This document shows positions 2,012 through 11,478 of a stretch of DNA of 11,478 nucleotides, piece after piece. Numbering within the stretch: position 1 is the first letter of the stretch; each line of letters opens with the position of its first letter. This stretch comes from a bacterium (GTDB taxonomy: Bacteria; BMS3Abin14), in the NCBI GenBank assembly GCA_029210545.1, contig JARGFV010000082.1, forward strand, positions 1 through 11,478. Direction: 5' to 3'. The translations under genes were made by a program, and so were the position numbers. The notes under the pieces were generated by a model. The model was not told the origin of the DNA and made no database searches. It saw nothing but the letters and a program-made list of their open reading frames with translations.

Positions 2012-4762
2012 TTACGACCAGTTTGAACGCATGATTGATGCTATAACCCGGGGGTCCAGCACCTTCTCACACGATTCCCAGTCGATCCTCTCCACATTGG
2101 CGTACCTTAATTCGAAGGGGTGACTTTTGGGTACCTCGTCTATGATTTTTGCGGCCTGTTCCCTTTCACCCATGGCCATGGCAACCCAGGCATCCTCCAG
2201 CACATCCGGGAGCTGGCCAAACAGGTTATAGATATCCTTGAGACGATCGGACAGGAGCTGATGCACCCGGTCTTCAACAGAATCCTTGTATCGCATGTTG
2301 TAAACGTAAACTTTGTCATGAACCTGGCCGATTCGCTGGATGCGGCCTTTTCTCTGTTCCAAACGGGTGGGGTTCCACGGAAGGTCCAGGTTAATCAACG
2401 TGGCAAGCCGTTGCAGGTTCAGCCCTTCCGAGGCGGCATCCGTTCCGATCATGAGTTTCAGCTCGCCCTTTCTAACCATAGTTTTAATGTCTTCGCGATT
2501 TTTCCGAGTCCAGGCGCCCCGCAGATAAATCCCTGACGATTGGGAGCCGGAGTATACAGCTATTTGTTCCTCAGGGTACTCTTCGGTAAGCTGCTCCGCC
2601 AGCCATAGCACCGAGTCACGGTACTGGCTGAAAATAATACACCCGCGCTCAAGCCACCTTCGGGCCGCCAGGCATTCGAGGACAACCTGATACTTGGGGT
2701 CCCTTTCCTGGTTCGCTTCCAGCGCCGCAACGAACTTTTCCAGAAGATCCCTTTCTGTCGAAGTCAGGCTTCGAGAGATACTGGCCATCTCAACTGGCTC
2801 TTCCTCCCCAAAAAGGTCCTCTTCCTCCTCCATCACTGGATCGAGGTCTTCCCATTCGGAGAGCATCTTTTGGGCCGTTTTCAATCCGGCATACACGGTG
2901 CTGCCAACGCGCCTTAAAAGGAGTGTTTTTAAAAACCCTGCCCCCTTCATTCGCTGACCCAGGGTGCGGCAAAATTCCTCAGCGAGGTCGTAGGCTTCGT
3001 GAAGGTAGGGCGGCAATAAGATGGCCTCCCTATCACCCTCACCAAACAGCTCAACACCGATTTTTTGCAAAAGTGGCTCGTTGGTCTCCGGGTCAATCTG
3101 GTTTTCCAGCTGCTCCCTGGTTCGCCGGATAATTCTGGTAATGAACGGATTGTGATCCTTGATGTATCGGGGAAAAAGGTCCCGCAGTCGCGAAACTTCG
3201 GGTGCTTTGAATCCCATAATGGCATCCCCGTCTACAACAGATTTCTTGTCTTCAAGGGCCAGCTTTGCCCGCAGTATTTCGAAATCCCGATGCTCTTCTT
3301 TCGGAGGGAGAGGGTTTCTTATCCATTCCCATTGCTCCTCAATACTTTCAGGTGGCTGATCGCTTCCCATGACCAGGGAGAGGGCCTGCCCCGACTTTCT
3401 CCAACGGCTAAAGGAGTTTCCCAATACGGATTCATCACCATGACTCAGGATATCAAGAAGGTCCCAGGCTTCAATCGGCCTGATCTGGACAGGAGTCGCT
3501 GTTGCCAGGAGCAGGCTCTGTGTTCTGTCGGCGATCTGCTTCATGAAAGCCAAGAGATTGTTCGCATCTGGTGCTTCATTATCCCTACCGTCCCCCAGGT
3601 TTTTACGGCGGGCACGATGGGCTTCATCAAGGATCACGCAATCATAAGTCAGGGAAAGAAGATGTTTGACCGCATCAGACCTTCGCGTGACCAACCCCCC
3701 TGATACGATCCCCACACGGCGCGGGCACCGTCGGATCCCCTCGGATCCTGTCACCGGGTATTCAATTTCACGTTCATCTACCCACTGTTTCCCTATCCAT
3801 ACCGCAGACGGCATTCCCAGGAGATCCAGCATCTCCCCTTGCCACTGCCATATGAGTGTCTTCGGGCAGATGATGAGGATCGGCTTATCCCCAGATAGAC
3901 CGATGAGCAGGGCTGTCATAGCCAGCTGAAGGGTTTTCCCCAATCCGACCTGGTCCGCAAGGATGTACCGGGCCTTGCCAAGGGGGCCCTTGTGGGCATC
4001 GAAAGCTGTCTTGACAAAGTATTTCTGGTGTTCCCACAGACCAACCTCACGACGGTAAACGGGAGACTCGATGACGACAGGGGCGGGGTCCATCTGACCC
4101 TCTTGTGTTTCTTCGCCCTTCCATCCCTCCCGTGTCGGGATGACTTTCCTTTTTGACAATCGGCCCAGATCCTCAACAACAAAATCAGCAAGAGGGATAG
4201 AGTAGGGGGAACTCCAAAGGGCGTTAAACTCTTCCTGGACCCACTCGACAGCCTCGGAGGAGGAATCCTCCCAGACCAGCTCGTAGTTCATCTCCCATGC
4301 GGATTTAGACTCGTTGGCGCTGCCTAGAAAGCTCGTTTTGCTTCCATCGGCCAGGGTGACCACTCCGGCCTTCCCATGGACCAGGCCAAAGGCGTTATCG
4401 GGCAGGACGCGCACCTGCAACTTACCGCTCCTGAGGTATTCAAAGAGGGCCTGGAACCTGGATCTTGCCTTTTCTCCTCCCTCAAGATCGAGGTAGGATT
4501 CCGGCTGGGAAGCACACCACGATCGCCGTAGGGCAGCCTGGGCAGCCTTGGCAGTGATGACATCGGCAGGGTTCAGATCGGAGTTACAGATGAGCCTAAT
4601 GGGGCCTGTTATGGATTCCAACTCCTCGCCGGCTACCTCTATAAGGGACGATGAGAAGTAACCGGCGATCCGGTCGTAGGACTTGGCGCCCCTGAGCCTG
4701 TCCAGCAGGAACGATTGTGACAGTGGTTCGAGCCGGGAAGAAAACCTTCGTACAGGGCTCAT
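2012..4762 (-). CDS. Phospholipase-D-like nuclease / SNF2-family helicase fusion
   Basis: This 916-residue protein is predicted to be a DNA translocase with an attached PLD-type phosphodiesterase. Seen in the sequence: the N-terminal ~190 residues resemble a PLDc_2 domain, with an HxK motif (H129, K131) followed by GSANES (147-152) and an acidic NYELVWED stretch. There is one HKD motif only, so an active site would need dimerisation. The SNF2 core follows: Walker A DQVGLGKT (270-277), motif II DEAH (379-382), motif III TATP (421-424), motif V GTDAASEGLNLQ (773-784) and motif VI QRKGRIQRIGQ (803-813). An acidic insert (about 639-656) lies between the two RecA lobes. Start: the ATG at 4762 is preceded on the minus strand by AGGT in three tandem copies ending in AGGTGA, a plausible ribosome-binding site. 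It lies 49 bp downstream of the methylase stop, consistent with one operon. The family is known from DISARM-like and other restriction-type defence loci, where PLD-helicases are the probable effector. No frameshift or missing motor motif is seen. Confidence 0.92.
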   Translation of the reverse strand: MSPVRRFSSRLEPLSQSFLLDRLRGAKSYDRIAGYFSSSLIEVAGEELESITGPIRLICNSDLNPADVITAKAAQAALRRSWCASQPESYLDLEGGEKARSRFQALFEYLRSGKLQVRVLPDNAFGLVHGKAGVVTLADGSKTSFLGSANESKSAWEMNYELVWEDSSSEAVEWVQEEFNALWSSPYSIPLADFVVEDLGRLSKRKVIPTREGWKGEETQEGQMDPAPVVIESPVYRREVGLWEHQKYFVKTAFDAHKGPLGKARYILADQVGLGKTLQLAMTALLIGLSGDKPILIICPKTLIWQWQGEMLDLLGMPSAVWIGKQWVDEREIEYPVTGSEGIRRCPRRVGIVSGGLVTRRSDAVKHLLSLTYDCVILDEAHRARRKNLGDGRDNEAPDANNLLAFMKQIADRTQSLLLATATPVQIRPIEAWDLLDILSHGDESVLGNSFSRWRKSGQALSLVMGSDQPPESIEEQWEWIRNPLPPKEEHRDFEILRAKLALEDKKSVVDGDAIMGFKAPEVSRLRDLFPRYIKDHNPFITRIIRRTREQLENQIDPETNEPLLQKIGVELFGEGDREAILLPPYLHEAYDLAEEFCRTLGQRMKGAGFLKTLLLRRVGSTVYAGLKTAQKMLSEWEDLDPVMEEEEDLFGEEEPVEMASISRSLTSTERDLLEKFVAALEANQERDPKYQVVLECLAARRWLERGCIIFSQYRDSVLWLAEQLTEEYPEEQIAVYSGSQSSGIYLRGAWTRKNREDIKTMVRKGELKLMIGTDAASEGLNLQRLATLINLDLPWNPTRLEQRKGRIQRIGQVHDKVYVYNMRYKDSVEDRVHQLLSDRLKDIYNLFGQLPDVLEDAWVAMAMGEREQAAKIIDEVPKSHPFELRYANVERIDWESCEKVLDPRVIASIMRSNWS

Positions 4763-4811: not shown

Positions 4812-7727
4812 CTACACATGGTCGTTCCTCACGGCCCCTGCCAGAAGAGCGGCTGACCTGGCATCCTCAGTCCAGTGATCCAGACCCCGCACACCGCCAG
4901 TGGACGCAAGGTTTTCCAGCAGGTGTATGATCTTCTCCCTGCTGTTCCAGTAATCGGGCAGCTCCGTATGGAACCAGTCGAGTCCGCTTTTCACCTCATT
5001 ATTTTTTCCAACAGAATGGATCGCAAAGAGGATCTGGCGGAGAAGAGAACCTGCAAACCCGTCCCCAGAAAGTCCACGTCGTCCGAGCTCCGTTGCTGTT
5101 TTCAGCCTTGTCTGGTTCGCCTTGGTCGAGGCTAGAAGGGCCGAATAATCGGCAGCCCCGAAACCCCTGGCCAGTTCCTGGTAAACACCGCTGCGCAGTT
5201 CTCCGTGTCCCTCGACTTCCAGACCTTTGAGGTAGAACCGCTCCATGGGGGAAAGAGTCTTCCATACCTCCCGGTCGATCCCCTTAGGGACAAGATGGTC
5301 ACAGGCAACCTTGACAGCGTTGACGATCATCTGCTCTACCGGGTTGACCTCTCCACGTGACCTTTCTCGTTGTATCTCCCGGGCCGGATCGACTTCCTCA
5401 ATAGGCCTCTCCGTCAGGATCCTCAAAGCAGCGGCGTAGGCTGCCAGCTGATAGTCAGCGTCGGCAAAATTGGGGTCGCTGTCATCCTCCAAAGCCGTCA
5501 TGCTGTCGAGTTGTTCCCTGACTTCGGCTTCAATCTTGTAGGCGATCTCGTCCAGGAACACCGGCTCCTCCTCCGTTCTTTTACGGCAGACGAGAAGCAC
5601 AGTTCCCTGAACGTAATTGCCTTCCTTGATGACGGCATCTGTCTCTGTCGAAATGCACCAGGCGGCGGTCACGCGCAGGCCGGCGGCCCATAGAATCAAA
5701 GCAAGGTCCGCCCAGACCCTTGCATCTTGATGGGTGAACATAACGATCTGCATGCCGTTATCCGGCATATGGTGGACCATTTTTTCGTAACACTCCACCA
5801 TGGCCTGGCGGAAACCCTGATCGTTTCCCTTAACGACCAGGGCTCTTTTCGAGTCGGCATACCAGTCGGGGAAAAGAACTGGCAGCCGACCTCCATACCA
5901 TGCCAGGAAGAATTCGGTGATCTCCTCATAATTGATGGCATCCGCATAAGGGGGATCAGTTATCCAGAAATGGCTCTTGTGTTCCAGCTGCCTGGCATCC
6001 AGAGGGATAACCACCGAATCCGAATCGATTTCCTGGGGATCATACCGCATGTACCAGACACCTTCGAGCAGTCCCAGGCCCTTGGAACCATAGTTATATA
6101 AGGTGTTAAGCGCCTGGTTGTAGAAGGTCTGGGCGAAGGATTCCCGAGCAGCACCAACGCCCCATCCCATAAGACGGGAGTTCCAGTTACAGCAGCGACC
6201 GACTCCAAGGAGGCCTGCAACCTTTTCCTCGATTGTGTCCCCGATTTCTTCGGTCATCTCCGTGAGCAGGCCATGGAGCAGAAGCTGGCGGGGAGTGAAC
6301 AGGTGATGCCAATAGGTCCACCCACGGGTACGGATTGGCTCATCTGTTTTACTCCCTGGTTCGATGCGACGGTTCGGAATGAATCCCTTCTTCTGCCACT
6401 CCGGGAACCGTTCCTTGAGAAGTTTGAGGACCTTGGCCTCCCTGGCCATGTCCTCCGCTGTCGGGGCCCTGTAGTGCCTACGGGTCCTCTCCTCACCTTT
6501 CTCACCAGAATAGGTCTCTATCCAACGGATGCAGTAGAGCCTTTCCTGGAAGACGTCATCGGGTCGGGGGGCTATATCTTCATTTTCCCACATCCTCATG
6601 CCACGGCGAATGACTTCGATAGGAGTAGAGGGGCCCCCATCAGGAGGGACCAGCCGCGAGCTGCTGATGGTCCCGATCCCCTTGGCCGTCTTCTGCTCCT
6701 GGGAGGTCGCGTCCCACTGAATCTCTACTTTGAACCTTTTTTCCCCATGGTCCGGAACCAGATGGCCCACCACTCCGGAGGAGGGGCCGATAAGGAGTGA
6801 CGGCAGGAGAGGAACGTGGTAGCCGGACTCCGGGTCCTTCACCTCGACGCAGTAAAGGAAGGCGTCAGCTCGCCAGCCGACCTCATTGGTTTCGATGCCC
6901 CACTCCACCACCTTCTCGTCCACGGCATGGAGGATCTTCTCCTGTGCCTCCCGGATCTTCTGGGCTGTCTCTTCACTCCCGCCAACCAAATTCAGGGAGG
7001 CCCAGGTGAGAATAGTTCCAACCGGACTCAGATCCGAACCGTATGCGTCACACCCTAACCGCGCCGCCTCGAAGGGAATGGAACCGGCTCCGCAGAAGGC
7101 ATCCCCGACTTTGGGTCGTGATCCAAACCGCCTCTGCCCAAGCTCCTCGACCAACTCAGGGAGGGAGGATGCTGCTGTTCCAAGGTGGGCATTAATGTTG
7201 CTCCAGGTCTGGTCAGATGGACCGTCGATCTGTTCGGGTCGGCTGGCATACTCCCTTTTCTCCGAGAATGGCATGCGGTCAAACACGAGAACCTGGAGTT
7301 TCTGTGCACCCTCCCGGTCCAGTTTCTTAATTGTTTGGCCATCTTCTTTAAGAAATCGCTTCTGCACGGAACCCGGCATTCTCAGGAGTTCTTCCACCAA
7401 ACGGGGGTTAGGGATCTTTTTGGATCTCCTTCGCCCCATGCCTTCATCATCCATGGTCAGGAGTTGGAGAAACACTTCACGGTCTTTGAGGGGGTCATCC
7501 GAGGCCGGCATAAGAAGGCCCAGGAGAGCAGCTCGAACCAGGATGAGGGGCTTTCGCCCCCACCATTTGCCTAGGCCTGTGAGGGTCTGGCTCTGGACCG
7601 CTTTCCTTTCCTTGAAGCTCTCCTGGGATATCTTCGCAACCGGGAACTGATCCTCGATAAAACTTTTGGCATCATGTAGATCGGCTATAACCTTACTAGA
7701 AGGGGCGGGTCTGGTTGAACGGCTCAT
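4812..7727 (-). CDS. DUF1156-containing DNA adenine methylase (COG1743-like)
   Basis: This 971-residue enzyme is predicted to transfer methyl groups from S-adenosylmethionine to adenine N6 (N4-cytosine is possible) in DNA, most likely marking the host genome as self. Seen in the sequence: an N-terminal DUF1156 block (residues ~22-66, with FIEDQFPVAKIS and KWWGRKPLILVRA), the SAM-binding motif I DAFCGAGSIPFEAARLG (209-225) followed by GSDLSPV, and the catalytic motif IV TDPPYAD (590-596). Motifs I and IV are about 370 residues apart, so a large domain sits between them. It holds a conserved-looking GWTYWHHLFTPRQLLLHGL segment (469-487) and may act in target recognition. The C-terminal ~230 residues (after about 740) are helical with no recognised motif. 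The start ATG at 7727 overlaps the DUF3780 stop by 4 bp (ATGA), with GAGAGG about 11 nt upstream, which indicates translational coupling. All key residues are present, so the enzyme may still be active. The target sequence cannot be predicted. Confidence 0.92.
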   Translation of the reverse strand: MSRSTRPAPSSKVIADLHDAKSFIEDQFPVAKISQESFKERKAVQSQTLTGLGKWWGRKPLILVRAALLGLLMPASDDPLKDREVFLQLLTMDDEGMGRRRSKKIPNPRLVEELLRMPGSVQKRFLKEDGQTIKKLDREGAQKLQVLVFDRMPFSEKREYASRPEQIDGPSDQTWSNINAHLGTAASSLPELVEELGQRRFGSRPKVGDAFCGAGSIPFEAARLGCDAYGSDLSPVGTILTWASLNLVGGSEETAQKIREAQEKILHAVDEKVVEWGIETNEVGWRADAFLYCVEVKDPESGYHVPLLPSLLIGPSSGVVGHLVPDHGEKRFKVEIQWDATSQEQKTAKGIGTISSSRLVPPDGGPSTPIEVIRRGMRMWENEDIAPRPDDVFQERLYCIRWIETYSGEKGEERTRRHYRAPTAEDMAREAKVLKLLKERFPEWQKKGFIPNRRIEPGSKTDEPIRTRGWTYWHHLFTPRQLLLHGLLTEMTEEIGDTIEEKVAGLLGVGRCCNWNSRLMGWGVGAARESFAQTFYNQALNTLYNYGSKGLGLLEGVWYMRYDPQEIDSDSVVIPLDARQLEHKSHFWITDPPYADAINYEEITEFFLAWYGGRLPVLFPDWYADSKRALVVKGNDQGFRQAMVECYEKMVHHMPDNGMQIVMFTHQDARVWADLALILWAAGLRVTAAWCISTETDAVIKEGNYVQGTVLLVCRKRTEEEPVFLDEIAYKIEAEVREQLDSMTALEDDSDPNFADADYQLAAYAAALRILTERPIEEVDPAREIQRERSRGEVNPVEQMIVNAVKVACDHLVPKGIDREVWKTLSPMERFYLKGLEVEGHGELRSGVYQELARGFGAADYSALLASTKANQTRLKTATELGRRGLSGDGFAGSLLRQILFAIHSVGKNNEVKSGLDWFHTELPDYWNSREKIIHLLENLASTGGVRGLDHWTEDARSAALLAGAVRNDHV

Positions 7728-8374
7728 GATTCGTTATCCCTCTCGTCGGCTTCTTTCGGCCGTTCATCCAAATCACTTTCACTGGCCAGACGGAAAAATT
7801 CCGGGACCACCAGATCGTCAGGCGAACGGTTAATGGCAGGGTTTTCGGAAAGGGCAAAACGCAGGGCTTTTCTCCAGCCCTTACCCCTGTCGAGGGTGCC
7901 GTGCCCGGTGGCAGCCGCTGTCTGGGTATAGAGCCACCACCGCTCCTCGGCCACCAGGCCCTTCCAGTTAGCCACTGCGTTGGAAACCAATCCCGGGTCA
8001 GCGTCCTCAATGGCCCAGGCGAGCAGTACGAGCTCTTTGCCCAGTTCCTTCCTCACCAGGTTGGGTCCGGTGCGCCATGCGCCGGCCTTTTTCCTTATTT
8101 TTTTCAGGCGTTGGTTAAAGTGCGCCCGGACTTCATCGGCGATGGCGTCCCATTTGGGACGGACGAGGACTGCCCTCACCTGGCCATCCAGTTTGTTGGT
8201 GTATGTCACTTCACTGGACCCTTTAACGCTGTCCCAGGTGAAATGTTCGCTGATCTCAACCTTCTGTGTTGAGGCTCGCTGTATCGTGACCACGAAATGA
8301 TGCTGGCTTTCGGCAGGATCGAAGCCAAAGGAGTGGGAAATCCGTTTTGACGTATCGTAGCTATCCCTGGTCAT
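7724..8374 (-). CDS. DUF3780 family protein
   Basis: This is a 216-residue protein of unknown biochemical activity. It is recognised as DUF3780 from characteristic blocks: SFGFDPAESQHHFVV near the N-terminus (15-29), LGKELVLLAWAIEDAD (111-126), NWKGLVAEERWWLYT (136-150) and GWRKALRFALSENP (166-179). It has no signal peptide or membrane segment, so it should be cytoplasmic. The last ~20 residues are highly charged and mostly acidic (DERPKEADERDNES). The family is known mainly as a neighbour of DUF499 and DUF1156 genes, which suggests a dedicated subunit or specificity/adaptor factor of the same complex; that role is inferred from context. It starts 4 bp after the DUF499 stop, with only a distant GGAAGAG at ~16 nt, so it may depend on reinitiation by ribosomes finishing DUF499. 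It overlaps the methylase start by 4 bp. If DUF499 translation is lost, expression of this gene may fall. Confidence 0.88.
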   Translation of the reverse strand: MTRDSYDTSKRISHSFGFDPAESQHHFVVTIQRASTQKVEISEHFTWDSVKGSSEVTYTNKLDGQVRAVLVRPKWDAIADEVRAHFNQRLKKIRKKAGAWRTGPNLVRKELGKELVLLAWAIEDADPGLVSNAVANWKGLVAEERWWLYTQTAAATGHGTLDRGKGWRKALRFALSENPAINRSPDDLVVPEFFRLASESDLDERPKEADERDNES

Positions 8375-8378
8375 TGAT

Positions 8379-11093
8379 TTACTGTTTTATCTCTTCCGCG
8401 GTGAAGTTTGTGCGGCCATCCTCGACCCAGTCCAGGAAGTCCTGTCCCGCCTGGAAAACTACTTTCCGCGTTTTTAACTGGACCTGGCCGTCTCCCTGGA
8501 TCTTCCTGAGGACATCGAGGCATTCCTCGATCAGCTCAGGGGCAATCTCCTTTTCTTCGAAGGTAGTGAGCTCTATCCACTCCCTTGTTCCAGCTATTCC
8601 CCCGATGATGATGGTTATCCCTTCCGCCCTGGCCTTATATTTCTTGAGGCCTTCCAGAAACTCATAGGATTCCTGGGTTGATGCGAAATCTTGAATGCGG
8701 GACCAAATCAAAGGTTTCTGGGGGTCAACCTTGATCTTCTCTTCCTTTTCCCAACTGATGGCAATGCGCTCAACTTCTGATTCGATTTCTTCCCTGGTTG
8801 CGTAAGCCAGGACCACAGAGGTGCCTTTGGGTAGGGCGAAGGGAGTATCGTAGACAGCCCCGGCAACTTTGGGATCAGAACCATCTGTCGAGTAGTAGAC
8901 ATCGGCTGATGGAGCGGCCTGAAGCTCCATCATCTTATCGCTGCCTTTCTGATAGGTTTTGTACTTCAAGGTGATCCGGTTTTTCCAAAGTGTGGGCTCT
9001 CCCGCCTCATGGCGGCCGGCACTGTCAACGGCAAGGAACGAAACCTTGAGATCGTTCCCATCCCACCTCGAGCCGTCCAGTTTGGCCGATGCAGTAGTGG
9101 CCGGCCCTCCGATTTCGTAATAGATGGTGTCTCCGTTAATGGGGGTGACCCTGAGTACAACGTCGCCGGTATTATCGTTCCTCGATTGCTCCTGGATGGA
9201 AACGTTGGTTTTCGGCTGGGGGAAAGGACCCTTGTCGACAAAACCACCATCCTCCCTCCAGAGATCCTTGTGCAGGCAGTCTTCCCTCAGACGGTCCAGG
9301 GCATCTGCTCTGTGCCACTGCCATTTCGGCATAGCGCCTGCCCTTTTCTTGATCTCCCCCCATGGCATGGATTGCTGAGTAAATAACCTCTGTTCACACT
9401 TCTTCCGGAAAGTCTCGCTGGAGATATCATCGGTGAACTTCATCTTCTCCTTCAGTACGTCGATGATCTGCTGCTCGCCGGAGTACTGGTTTCCCTCAAA
9501 CTTCATCCGGAAGTCAGCCTGGACGAGGCCTGATTCCGTTGGATACCAGACGGTGGTAAAGGTCTCCCGGACAGCTGAGTGGAAATTGTGCAGGATTCGC
9601 TCGTTCAGCTCCCTGGCCTGAAGCATCTGCGGGTCGTTATCAGGGACTCTCTCCGTTTGCAGGTCGTTGAGGATGTGCTGGACGGCCTTGAGCCGTTTCC
9701 CCACATCTATCAGCTGATCGTAGGTGTCCTTTGTTCCCGTGAGGAAACAGATCCTGTTTTTCCACATCGTCTGCTCATAGAACTGGACCAGTTCCGGTCG
9801 GAGGTGGCCACCTAATCGAGGTTCAGTAACTACCAACGTCGTCCGGTCCTGTTCGAGCTCAATCTCATCCACTGGAGGGAGAACCTGAACCTTCTGGTAG
9901 CACCATCCATTGGTGACTTTGAAAAGTTCCTGGAGTCGCTCCCTGAGTTCCTTTTCGGCTTGCTCCTGCGCGAAAGCTCGAACCAGAGATTCCAGTTTAG
10001 CAATGAGGTTCTGAACGTTTTTGAAAAAAAGCTTTCCATCTCTGGTGCTGTGAAGGTACCAGGCTGCGGTCGAAATCTTGGACAGGGTCTCCTCTTTGAG
10101 TTTTGAGAGATCCCTGCCCGGCTCGCACAGATAGGCCACCAGTTCAGGAATGGCGAGCCCCAGCGTGGCATTAGGAACGTTTGCCAAAGATGCCATGAGC
10201 AGAAGTTTACAGGCATCCGTTGCATCCTTGTTGCCCATGTTGGCAGCCATGACCTCGGCCACTGCCTGGCCGTCCGAAGCGATATCATGGGCGATAGCAT
10301 TATCCAGTGAACTGTTGATCTGGCCGATCTCTGCTCGGGTTTCCTGGTCGTTAAGGTCCAGGTCGTGGGCCCCCACAAGGTATGAATGCTCCGCAATACC
10401 TGTCGTCCAGAGGCGAGCAACCACGATCCTCATGAGCCGGATGAGGCCTCTGGTCTGTTGGAAGCCTGGGTTCTGCCTGAAGCGGGCATACAGATCACGG
10501 ATACCAGGGTGAAACGGGTAGGATGACGTGATGTGTTGGGCAAACTCCTCAGGAGACTGGCTGGTGATAGCCATCTGTTTGGCGTCCCTGATGGCTTTTG
10601 CGTACCCTTGAGCGACCTCTTCAATTTGACCTTCAGATGGCAGGCCGGTAAAGATCCGCTTGCGGAGGATGTGGTAGAGCTCATCAGAATTCAGTCTGAC
10701 GGGCTCGAGGGTCATCGCTGTTCTGTGAGTTTCATTTTCAAAATCCGAAAGGAGTGCCGTGATCTGAGCGCTCCCACTTTCATAAGCTGCCGCCAGATCT
10801 GTGATGACAAGACACACCCGTGAGCAGGATTCCTTGCCGATTGCTACAAGAAGGTTTGAGAGGGCGGTAGCCGTTACTTGCGCCAGATCTGAATTGCCCA
10901 CGGCTTTTGATTTGGCGTTTTCAAAGTAAGGTGGCAGTTCGTCGACCAACAGGAGAACAGTTTCGCCATCAAAAAGGTTCTCCCAGGCTTTCTGACCAGG
11001 GGCCTGAAGAGGTGAATAGCACTCTTTAAAATGGGCCTTTTTCCCTAACTGCTCGGCTAGAGAACCCCAGATCCCCTTGTTGATTCCTAGCAA
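8379..11093 (-). CDS. DUF499-type P-loop ATPase, 5'-truncated (probable pseudogene remnant)
   Basis: The remaining 904 residues match the DUF499 ATPase family. An IWGSLAEQLG segment (8-17), like the (R)TLWGELAxQLG block of the family, is followed by Walker B VLLLVDELPPYF (46-57), a sensor-like LVITDLAAAYE (95-105) and SYPFHPGIRDLYARF...FQQTRGLIRLMRIV (191-224). Known full-length relatives begin with a Walker A (GxGTGKT) that should lie upstream of the first block. No such motif is present here. The frame can be read only to the TGA at 11121-11123, which falls inside a putative transposon end (TGTCAG at 11119). The TTG at 11093 is simply the first possible start; it has no Shine-Dalgarno sequence. 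The C-terminal third contains beta-rich, immunoglobulin-like segments, one (~722-766) resembling chitobiase C-terminal repeats (YYSTDGSDPK...PFALPKGT). It is the first gene of the operon. Without Walker A it should not bind ATP normally. It could be completed beyond the inserted element, outside the window. Confidence 0.85.
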   Translation of the reverse strand: MLGINKGIWGSLAEQLGKKAHFKECYSPLQAPGQKAWENLFDGETVLLLVDELPPYFENAKSKAVGNSDLAQVTATALSNLLVAIGKESCSRVCLVITDLAAAYESGSAQITALLSDFENETHRTAMTLEPVRLNSDELYHILRKRIFTGLPSEGQIEEVAQGYAKAIRDAKQMAITSQSPEEFAQHITSSYPFHPGIRDLYARFRQNPGFQQTRGLIRLMRIVVARLWTTGIAEHSYLVGAHDLDLNDQETRAEIGQINSSLDNAIAHDIASDGQAVAEVMAANMGNKDATDACKLLLMASLANVPNATLGLAIPELVAYLCEPGRDLSKLKEETLSKISTAAWYLHSTRDGKLFFKNVQNLIAKLESLVRAFAQEQAEKELRERLQELFKVTNGWCYQKVQVLPPVDEIELEQDRTTLVVTEPRLGGHLRPELVQFYEQTMWKNRICFLTGTKDTYDQLIDVGKRLKAVQHILNDLQTERVPDNDPQMLQARELNERILHNFHSAVRETFTTVWYPTESGLVQADFRMKFEGNQYSGEQQIIDVLKEKMKFTDDISSETFRKKCEQRLFTQQSMPWGEIKKRAGAMPKWQWHRADALDRLREDCLHKDLWREDGGFVDKGPFPQPKTNVSIQEQSRNDNTGDVVLRVTPINGDTIYYEIGGPATTASAKLDGSRWDGNDLKVSFLAVDSAGRHEAGEPTLWKNRITLKYKTYQKGSDKMMELQAAPSADVYYSTDGSDPKVAGAVYDTPFALPKGTSVVLAYATREEIESEVERIAISWEKEEKIKVDPQKPLIWSRIQDFASTQESYEFLEGLKKYKARAEGITIIIGGIAGTREWIELTTFEEKEIAPELIEECLDVLRKIQGDGQVQLKTRKVVFQAGQDFLDWVEDGRTNFTAEEIKQ

Positions 11094-11118
11094 AAACGGT
11101 TCAAAAGAGTCGAGATAT

Positions 11119-11155
11119 TGTCAGTTTGAGTTGACCATTATGTAGAGATTGTCAG
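11119..11155 (+). repeat. Two TGTCAG repeats, 31 bp apart (putative transposase binding sites)
   Basis: TGTCAG occurs at 11119-11124 and 11150-11155. The spacing of 31 bp is about three helical turns, so both would face the same side of the DNA. Each copy is preceded by GAGAT (11112-11116 with AT in between; 11145-11149 directly). Multiple short end repeats are known as transposase binding sites in IS21- and Tn7-like elements. The assignment here is inferred. Confidence 0.45.
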
Positions 11156-11209
11156 AGAATATGGGCTTGTTGCGGAAGGCTCTTTTTTTTGACACCGTTG
11201 ATAGAAGGC

Positions 11210-11243
11210 GGGCGGAGAGTTTAGACGAACTCTCCGCCCTTTT
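11210..11243 (+). terminator. Strong rho-independent terminator in the transposon leader
   Basis: A perfect 12-bp stem (GGGCGGAGAGTT at 11210-11221 with AACTCTCCGCCC at 11228-11239) encloses a 6-nt loop, TAGACG, and is followed by TTTT on the plus strand. The minus-strand side has no T-run, so it works rightward. It lies between the element end and the first element gene (ATG 11283). It would stop transcription entering from outside, or act as an attenuator of the element's own leader. Confidence 0.7.
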
Positions 11244-11282
11244 ACATTCGGGGTGACAGCCCCTGTCCTACATGGAGGTTTA

Positions 11283-11478
11283 ATGATAAGGCCGGTGCTT
11301 GTTGAACTCAAGCAAATTTTTGAAATGGGCCGGTGCTATCCATGGCCAAGGCCGCAGTGCTGCCCGCGTTGCGGCAACTGGCGGGTCTGGGGACATGGCT
11401 ACGTCGCCCGCTATTTTGAGGGATATGGCGAAGCCCTGCTGGTGAAGTGCTACCGGTGCCCGGCGTGCGGTTGCGTCA
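11283..11478 (+). CDS. Cysteine-rich zinc-ribbon protein of a mobile element (partial, 3' end outside window)
   Basis: An open frame from ATG 11283 runs off the window edge and gives 65 residues. GGAGG at 11274-11278 lies 4 nt before the ATG and supports the start. The visible part has a CPRCG knuckle (27-31, with a further Cys at 26), a GHGYVARYFEGYGEALLV strand-turn-strand segment (37-54) and a second knuckle CYRCPAC (56-62) plus C64. This is a classic zinc-ribbon layout. Similar small proteins (I think of the DUF6431 type, from memory) often precede an integrase-like transposase and an ATPase in transposons. It could be a DNA-binding accessory factor or regulator for transposition. The family name is uncertain because only the N-terminus is visible. 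Confidence 0.65.
   Translation, partial: MIRPVLVELKQIFEMGRCYPWPRPQCCPRCGNWRVWGHGYVARYFEGYGEALLVKCYRCPACGCV

Follow-up and report, generated by a model that had tools for sequence, protein, structure and literature searches.

Apparent transposon insertion in a BREX-related operon of Type 2, within its DUF499 ATPase gene

The operon and its truncated ATPase gene

The window, by which we mean the whole stretch of DNA analyzed, is a complete contig (C82; 11,478 bp) from a 2.72-Mb assembly of 241 contigs whose completeness is estimated at 97.5%. Its minus strand carries an operon that encodes, in order, a DUF499 ATPase (8379-11077), a DUF3780 protein (7724-8374), a DUF1156 N6-adenine methyltransferase (4812-7727), a PLD-SNF2 helicase (2012-4762) and then a NERD-UvrD helicase (154-1827). 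By gene set and order, as defined for Type-2 DUF499-centred BREX-related (BR) systems (PMC12839542), the operon can be assigned to this type. The standalone DUF3780 protein scored 164.7 bits against PF12635 (cutoff 27) and the methyltransferase 1305 bits against NF042963, the model of DUF1156-type N6-methyltransferases (cutoff 1000). The helicase, which has PLDc_2 and SNF2 domains, reached 1273 bits against NF042964, the model of an HKD nuclease fused to an SNF2 helicase (cutoff 1100). The match of the ATPase to the DUF499 AAA+ family model (NF042962) yielded 716 bits versus a cutoff of 1200, a score that we count towards the Type-2 set as that of a truncated member of the family. The operon has in common with the known systems (PMC12839542; NF042962-NF042964) a DUF499 ATPase with an Fn3-like C-terminal region, a standalone DUF3780 protein, a DUF1156 methyltransferase and an HKD-nuclease/helicase fusion. 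The gene order is that of loci L024 and L025, and the operons of Thermomicrobium roseum and Lichenicola match in both set and order. It differs in having a DUF499 gene that appears to be cut by a transposon and an additional NERD-UvrD gene downstream.

The genes for DUF3780, the methyltransferase and the PLD-SNF2 helicase contain zero internal stops, are as long as their homologues and keep the motifs that we checked (DPPY in the methyltransferase; HxK, GLGKT, DEAH and QRKGR in the helicase). The NERD-UvrD gene is also intact. Thus, the four downstream genes are as complete as an earlier note on this DNA had described them, with the qualification that the fourth is accessory and lies outside the core system.

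The ATPase gene, on the other hand, is truncated. Its host coding part, delimited with PADLOC and NCBIfam profiles and by alignment with homologues L022-L026, comprises 898 complete codons and starts at a GIWG motif, where homology to DUF499 proteins begins. Both profiles first match at position 126 (of 1022 in PADLOC and of 1025 in NF042962). Full-length homologues (1,024-1,040 aa) have the Walker A motif GGGKTH at residues ~75-88 (77-82 in L022) and the motif [GY][IL]WG at ~127-138; approximately 126-134 N-terminal residues are missing from the remnant, Walker A among them. Walker B (VLLLVDE) is kept and Walker A, present in L022-L026, is absent, as the earlier note had stated. The same note had placed the cut exactly before Walker A, yet it falls between the two motifs, at a distance of ~46 residues from Walker A and ~40 from Walker B. 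It had also named homologues of the same length that likewise lack Walker A as a reason to abandon its reading, and the full-length homologues examined all have the motif. The remnant has no functional P-loop, a feature that a working system needs and that the classification does not depend on.

The open reading frame extends on the minus strand to a TGA (11121-11123) inside a TGTCAG motif, exactly as first reported. Its first in-frame start, a TTG at 11093, has no visible ribosome-binding site. This start is not, however, the only one, as had been claimed: a TTG at 10949, a GTG at 10901 and an ATG at 10715 come later in the frame.

The left end of the element

The DNA upstream of the DUF499 homology carries the signatures of a mobile element. 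We aligned the region upstream of its first gene with loci L054-L057 and found that the homology crosses TGTCAG and runs 41 bp further out, to 11078. The outer end at this position (TGTTGATTCC / TGTTGATTCCTAGC) aligned with TGTTAGTTxCCACAA in the four relatives. In a scan with a matrix built from those ends of relatives whose position a target duplication or an alignment had settled, 11078 on the plus strand ranked first among 22,914 window positions (14.5 versus 10.8 for the next). An earlier set of ends, gathered by regular expression, was biased in the first 8 bases, and 11078 still came first once the matrix had been rebuilt. Shuffling one strand base by base 200 times gave a mean maximum score of 9.4 and a highest one of 14.39, as compared to 14.54 for the real sequence. 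Because 1 of the 200 shuffles came close to the score of 11078, the case for this position also draws on the alignment and on the match with the break in homology. The outer end of the element sits at the very base where DUF499 homology is lost, with the codon 11078-11076 spanning the join. Judged from the relatives, the element starts at 11078, and TGTCAG at 11119 is a subterminal repeat conserved among them. Hence, the earlier note was right about a mobile-element end and had placed it 41 bp away. With the element starting at 11078, the sequence from 11078 to 11120 is transposon DNA that is in frame by accident, and the TTG at 11093, like the final 14 codons of the frame, belongs to the transposon.

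This left end (11078-11478, plus strand), recognized by the alignment and the first-ranked matrix score, runs off the contig, which ends 401 bp into the element. It contains three terminal repeats on the plus strand: an outer one (TGTTGATTCCTAGCAAAAACGG, 11078-11099), supported by the alignment, the relatives' ends and the matrix; a second one (GATATTGTCAG...TTGACC, 11114-11136), which holds TGTCAG and the TGA at 11121-11123 and corresponds to ATATTTTCAGATT...TTGACC in L054-L057; and a third one (ATTGTCAGAGAATATGGG, 11144-11165), also aligned in L054-L057 and recorded as direct repeat D5. Two terminator-like hairpins lie on the plus strand of the window directly before the first gene (11163-11239). 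The second of them (GGGCGGAGAGTTT...AACTCTCCGCCC, 11210-11239) is strongly conserved in the relatives and perhaps blocks transcription that reads through from outside. A DUF6431-like zinc-ribbon gene follows (11283-11478, plus strand), of which the 5' 65 codons are present and remain open at the contig end. The outer end lies 205 bp before this gene, as compared to 188-202 bp in L054-L057, L070, L084 and L086; C82 has the inner repeats and the hairpin as well as a TGT outer end in the range of about 190-205 bp ahead of the first gene.

The earlier choice of TGTCAG as the end and of GATAT as a 5-bp duplication was rejected, since the homology to the relatives continues 41 bp further out. From the 5-bp duplications at the ends of L070, L084 and L086 we predict instead the target duplication CCCCT at 11073-11077, for which no partner copy was found in the assembly.

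Relatives of the element

The zinc-ribbon gene is homologous to L028-L030 and has relatives in 79 loci. Its product has the conserved CxxC pairs of a DUF6431-type zinc ribbon and is 38-44% identical to relatives; the 65-aa fragment had no Pfam match of its own, and relative L043 matched PF20020. Its nearest relative, with 77% identity, is at 36-494 of L053, a contig of a Desulfuromonadales metagenome-assembled genome, where no transposase comes next and the neighbour is a heavy-metal ATPase gene, encoded on the opposite strand and directly adjoining. Locus L053 may be a broken copy.

The transposase that the earlier note expected to the right of the insertion is indeed what relatives carry: an rve-type transposase follows the zinc-ribbon gene in 57 of those 66 related loci that have 1.5 kb or more of room, and a transposase plus an AAA ATPase do so in 47 of these 66. 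In three loci (L070, L084 and L086), a unit of 2,981-3,206 bp is bordered at left and right by ends of the same kind, and the 5-bp duplications are exact (CATGT, AGTGC and TCTGG, respectively). The relatives' transposase scored 216 bits with the IS481 model, just below its cutoff of 224, and also matched IS5376-annotated (IS21-type, IstA-like) and TnsB structures, while their ATPase matched MuB. The TGT...ACA ends, the several repeats per end and the 5-bp duplications of the relatives are likenesses to the IS481 / IS21 / Tn7-TnsB / Mu group, whereas the zinc-ribbon gene is extra; this putative placement is by model and structure matches.

Plasmid pBB2 of Cupriavidus necator (NC_015724) carries an annotated trio of DUF6431, DDE transposase and ATPase genes, and the relatives of the C82 element share both this trio and its order, starting as in C82 with a DUF6431-type zinc ribbon. 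The C82 element, in contrast to that of pBB2, is visible for its first 401 bp only, and its sequence has diverged. Paper searches, with incomplete literature coverage and without ISfinder, returned no descriptions of DUF6431 elements. It is conceivable, though we rate it as rather unlikely, that the C82 transposon belongs to a widespread and apparently undescribed three-gene group, defined by a zinc ribbon, an IS481-like transposase, a MuB-like ATPase, triple end repeats and a conserved entry terminator, in which the zinc-ribbon protein could be a DNA-binding or targeting factor.

Interpretation of the insertion

The explanation that we hold with high confidence is that a Type-2 BR operon had its DUF499 ATPase gene interrupted by a DDE transposon of ~3 kb with TGT...ACA ends. 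The genes of this transposon would be, in order, the DUF6431 zinc ribbon and, judging from relatives, an IS481-like transposase followed by a MuB-like ATPase. Its left end at 11078 lies ~46 codons past Walker A and ~40 codons ahead of Walker B, and the remainder of the element would be found past the contig end, together with the CCCCT duplication and the N-terminal portion of the ATPase gene. The removal of Walker A and the native 5' end by the transposon, already proposed in the earlier note, is well supported. With both gone, the ATPase should be inactive and defence lost or impaired, while the methyltransferase may still be made if transcribed. A native promoter upstream of DUF499 would be cut off from the rest of the operon by the element. 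We regard the case as an ordinary one, in which a transposon would have knocked out a known anti-phage defence system; of the "natural knockout" claimed earlier, the truncation stands and the knock-out itself we infer, since C82 includes no more than 401 bp of the element and no other contig yielded the N-terminal part.

Searches of the assembly for the missing DUF499 N-terminus with the family model, the N-terminal 147 residues of a homologue and the predicted AGGGG/TGT junction did not find it, the sole match (contig C144) being a chance one, antisense to a peptidase-like frame. A scan of genome contigs with the DUF499 protein gave no relatives. Nor did the assembly contain further element DNA or the element's transposase, ATPase or right end. 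A transposase fragment at a contig end (2-472 of C46; L047) belongs to a different element, and the ATPase-like matches on C20 and C80 were weak (24-29% identity). Plasmid searches with the element DNA or the short zinc-ribbon fragment returned chance matches only. No DUF499 relatives were found at E 1e-40 in the other 11 of the 12 genomes of the phylum and, as a result, there is no empty site for comparison.

A branched node in the assembly graph could also explain why the assembly stops in the element and lacks the N-terminal piece. This would fit an insertion present in part of the population, with other cells keeping an intact system and the assembler taking the inserted variant. Such a mixture is possible, and we consider it unlikely, as the sequence gives no sign of two variants. 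Less probable still is a misjoin at a repeat edge, in which the assembly linked the end of a repeat to a DUF499 gene, the organism's own copy being intact. The 241 contigs of the assembly and the missing continuation of C82 would suit such an artefact. Yet the join coincides exactly with the outer terminal repeat, as it does in a real insertion, and neither an intact copy of DUF499 nor an N-terminal piece is found elsewhere in the assembly. That the shortened ATPase is a working variant whose start lies inside the element, or internally within its 898 stop-free host codons at one of the downstream in-frame starts, is highly improbable given the absence of Walker A (present in all homologues examined) and of a good ribosome-binding site, and the in-frame stop inside the element.

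The insertion adds a natural case in which a Type-2 BR system has a broken ATPase while its methyltransferase and nuclease-helicase genes are still open. The main value of the case is as a corrective: defence operons listed by gene presence may be inactive, and the ends of an element are better placed from related elements than from the first stop codon.

Other loci with DUF499 homologues have peculiarities of their own. On a plasmid of Deinococcus sp. NW-56 (L022, 8617-19591), Type-2 BR DUF499 and DUF3780 genes are followed by an antitoxin/VapC pair and then by several transposases; the annotation of the stretch includes neither a methyltransferase nor a helicase, and it is possibly another transposon-degraded copy. 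A Phd/VapC-type toxin-antitoxin pair, comparable to that of L022, also lies between the DUF3780 and DUF1156 genes of the Type-2 BR operon on a Deinococcus psychrotolerans plasmid (L026, 12449-13185). Finally, DUF499 is annotated on a Desulfosarcina sp. BuS5 plasmid (L023, 7354-10450) as two overlapping frames, one for the ATPase part and one for the Fn3 part, an arrangement suggestive of a frameshift or of a split gene. Its upstream neighbours are a group II intron gene and a transposase.
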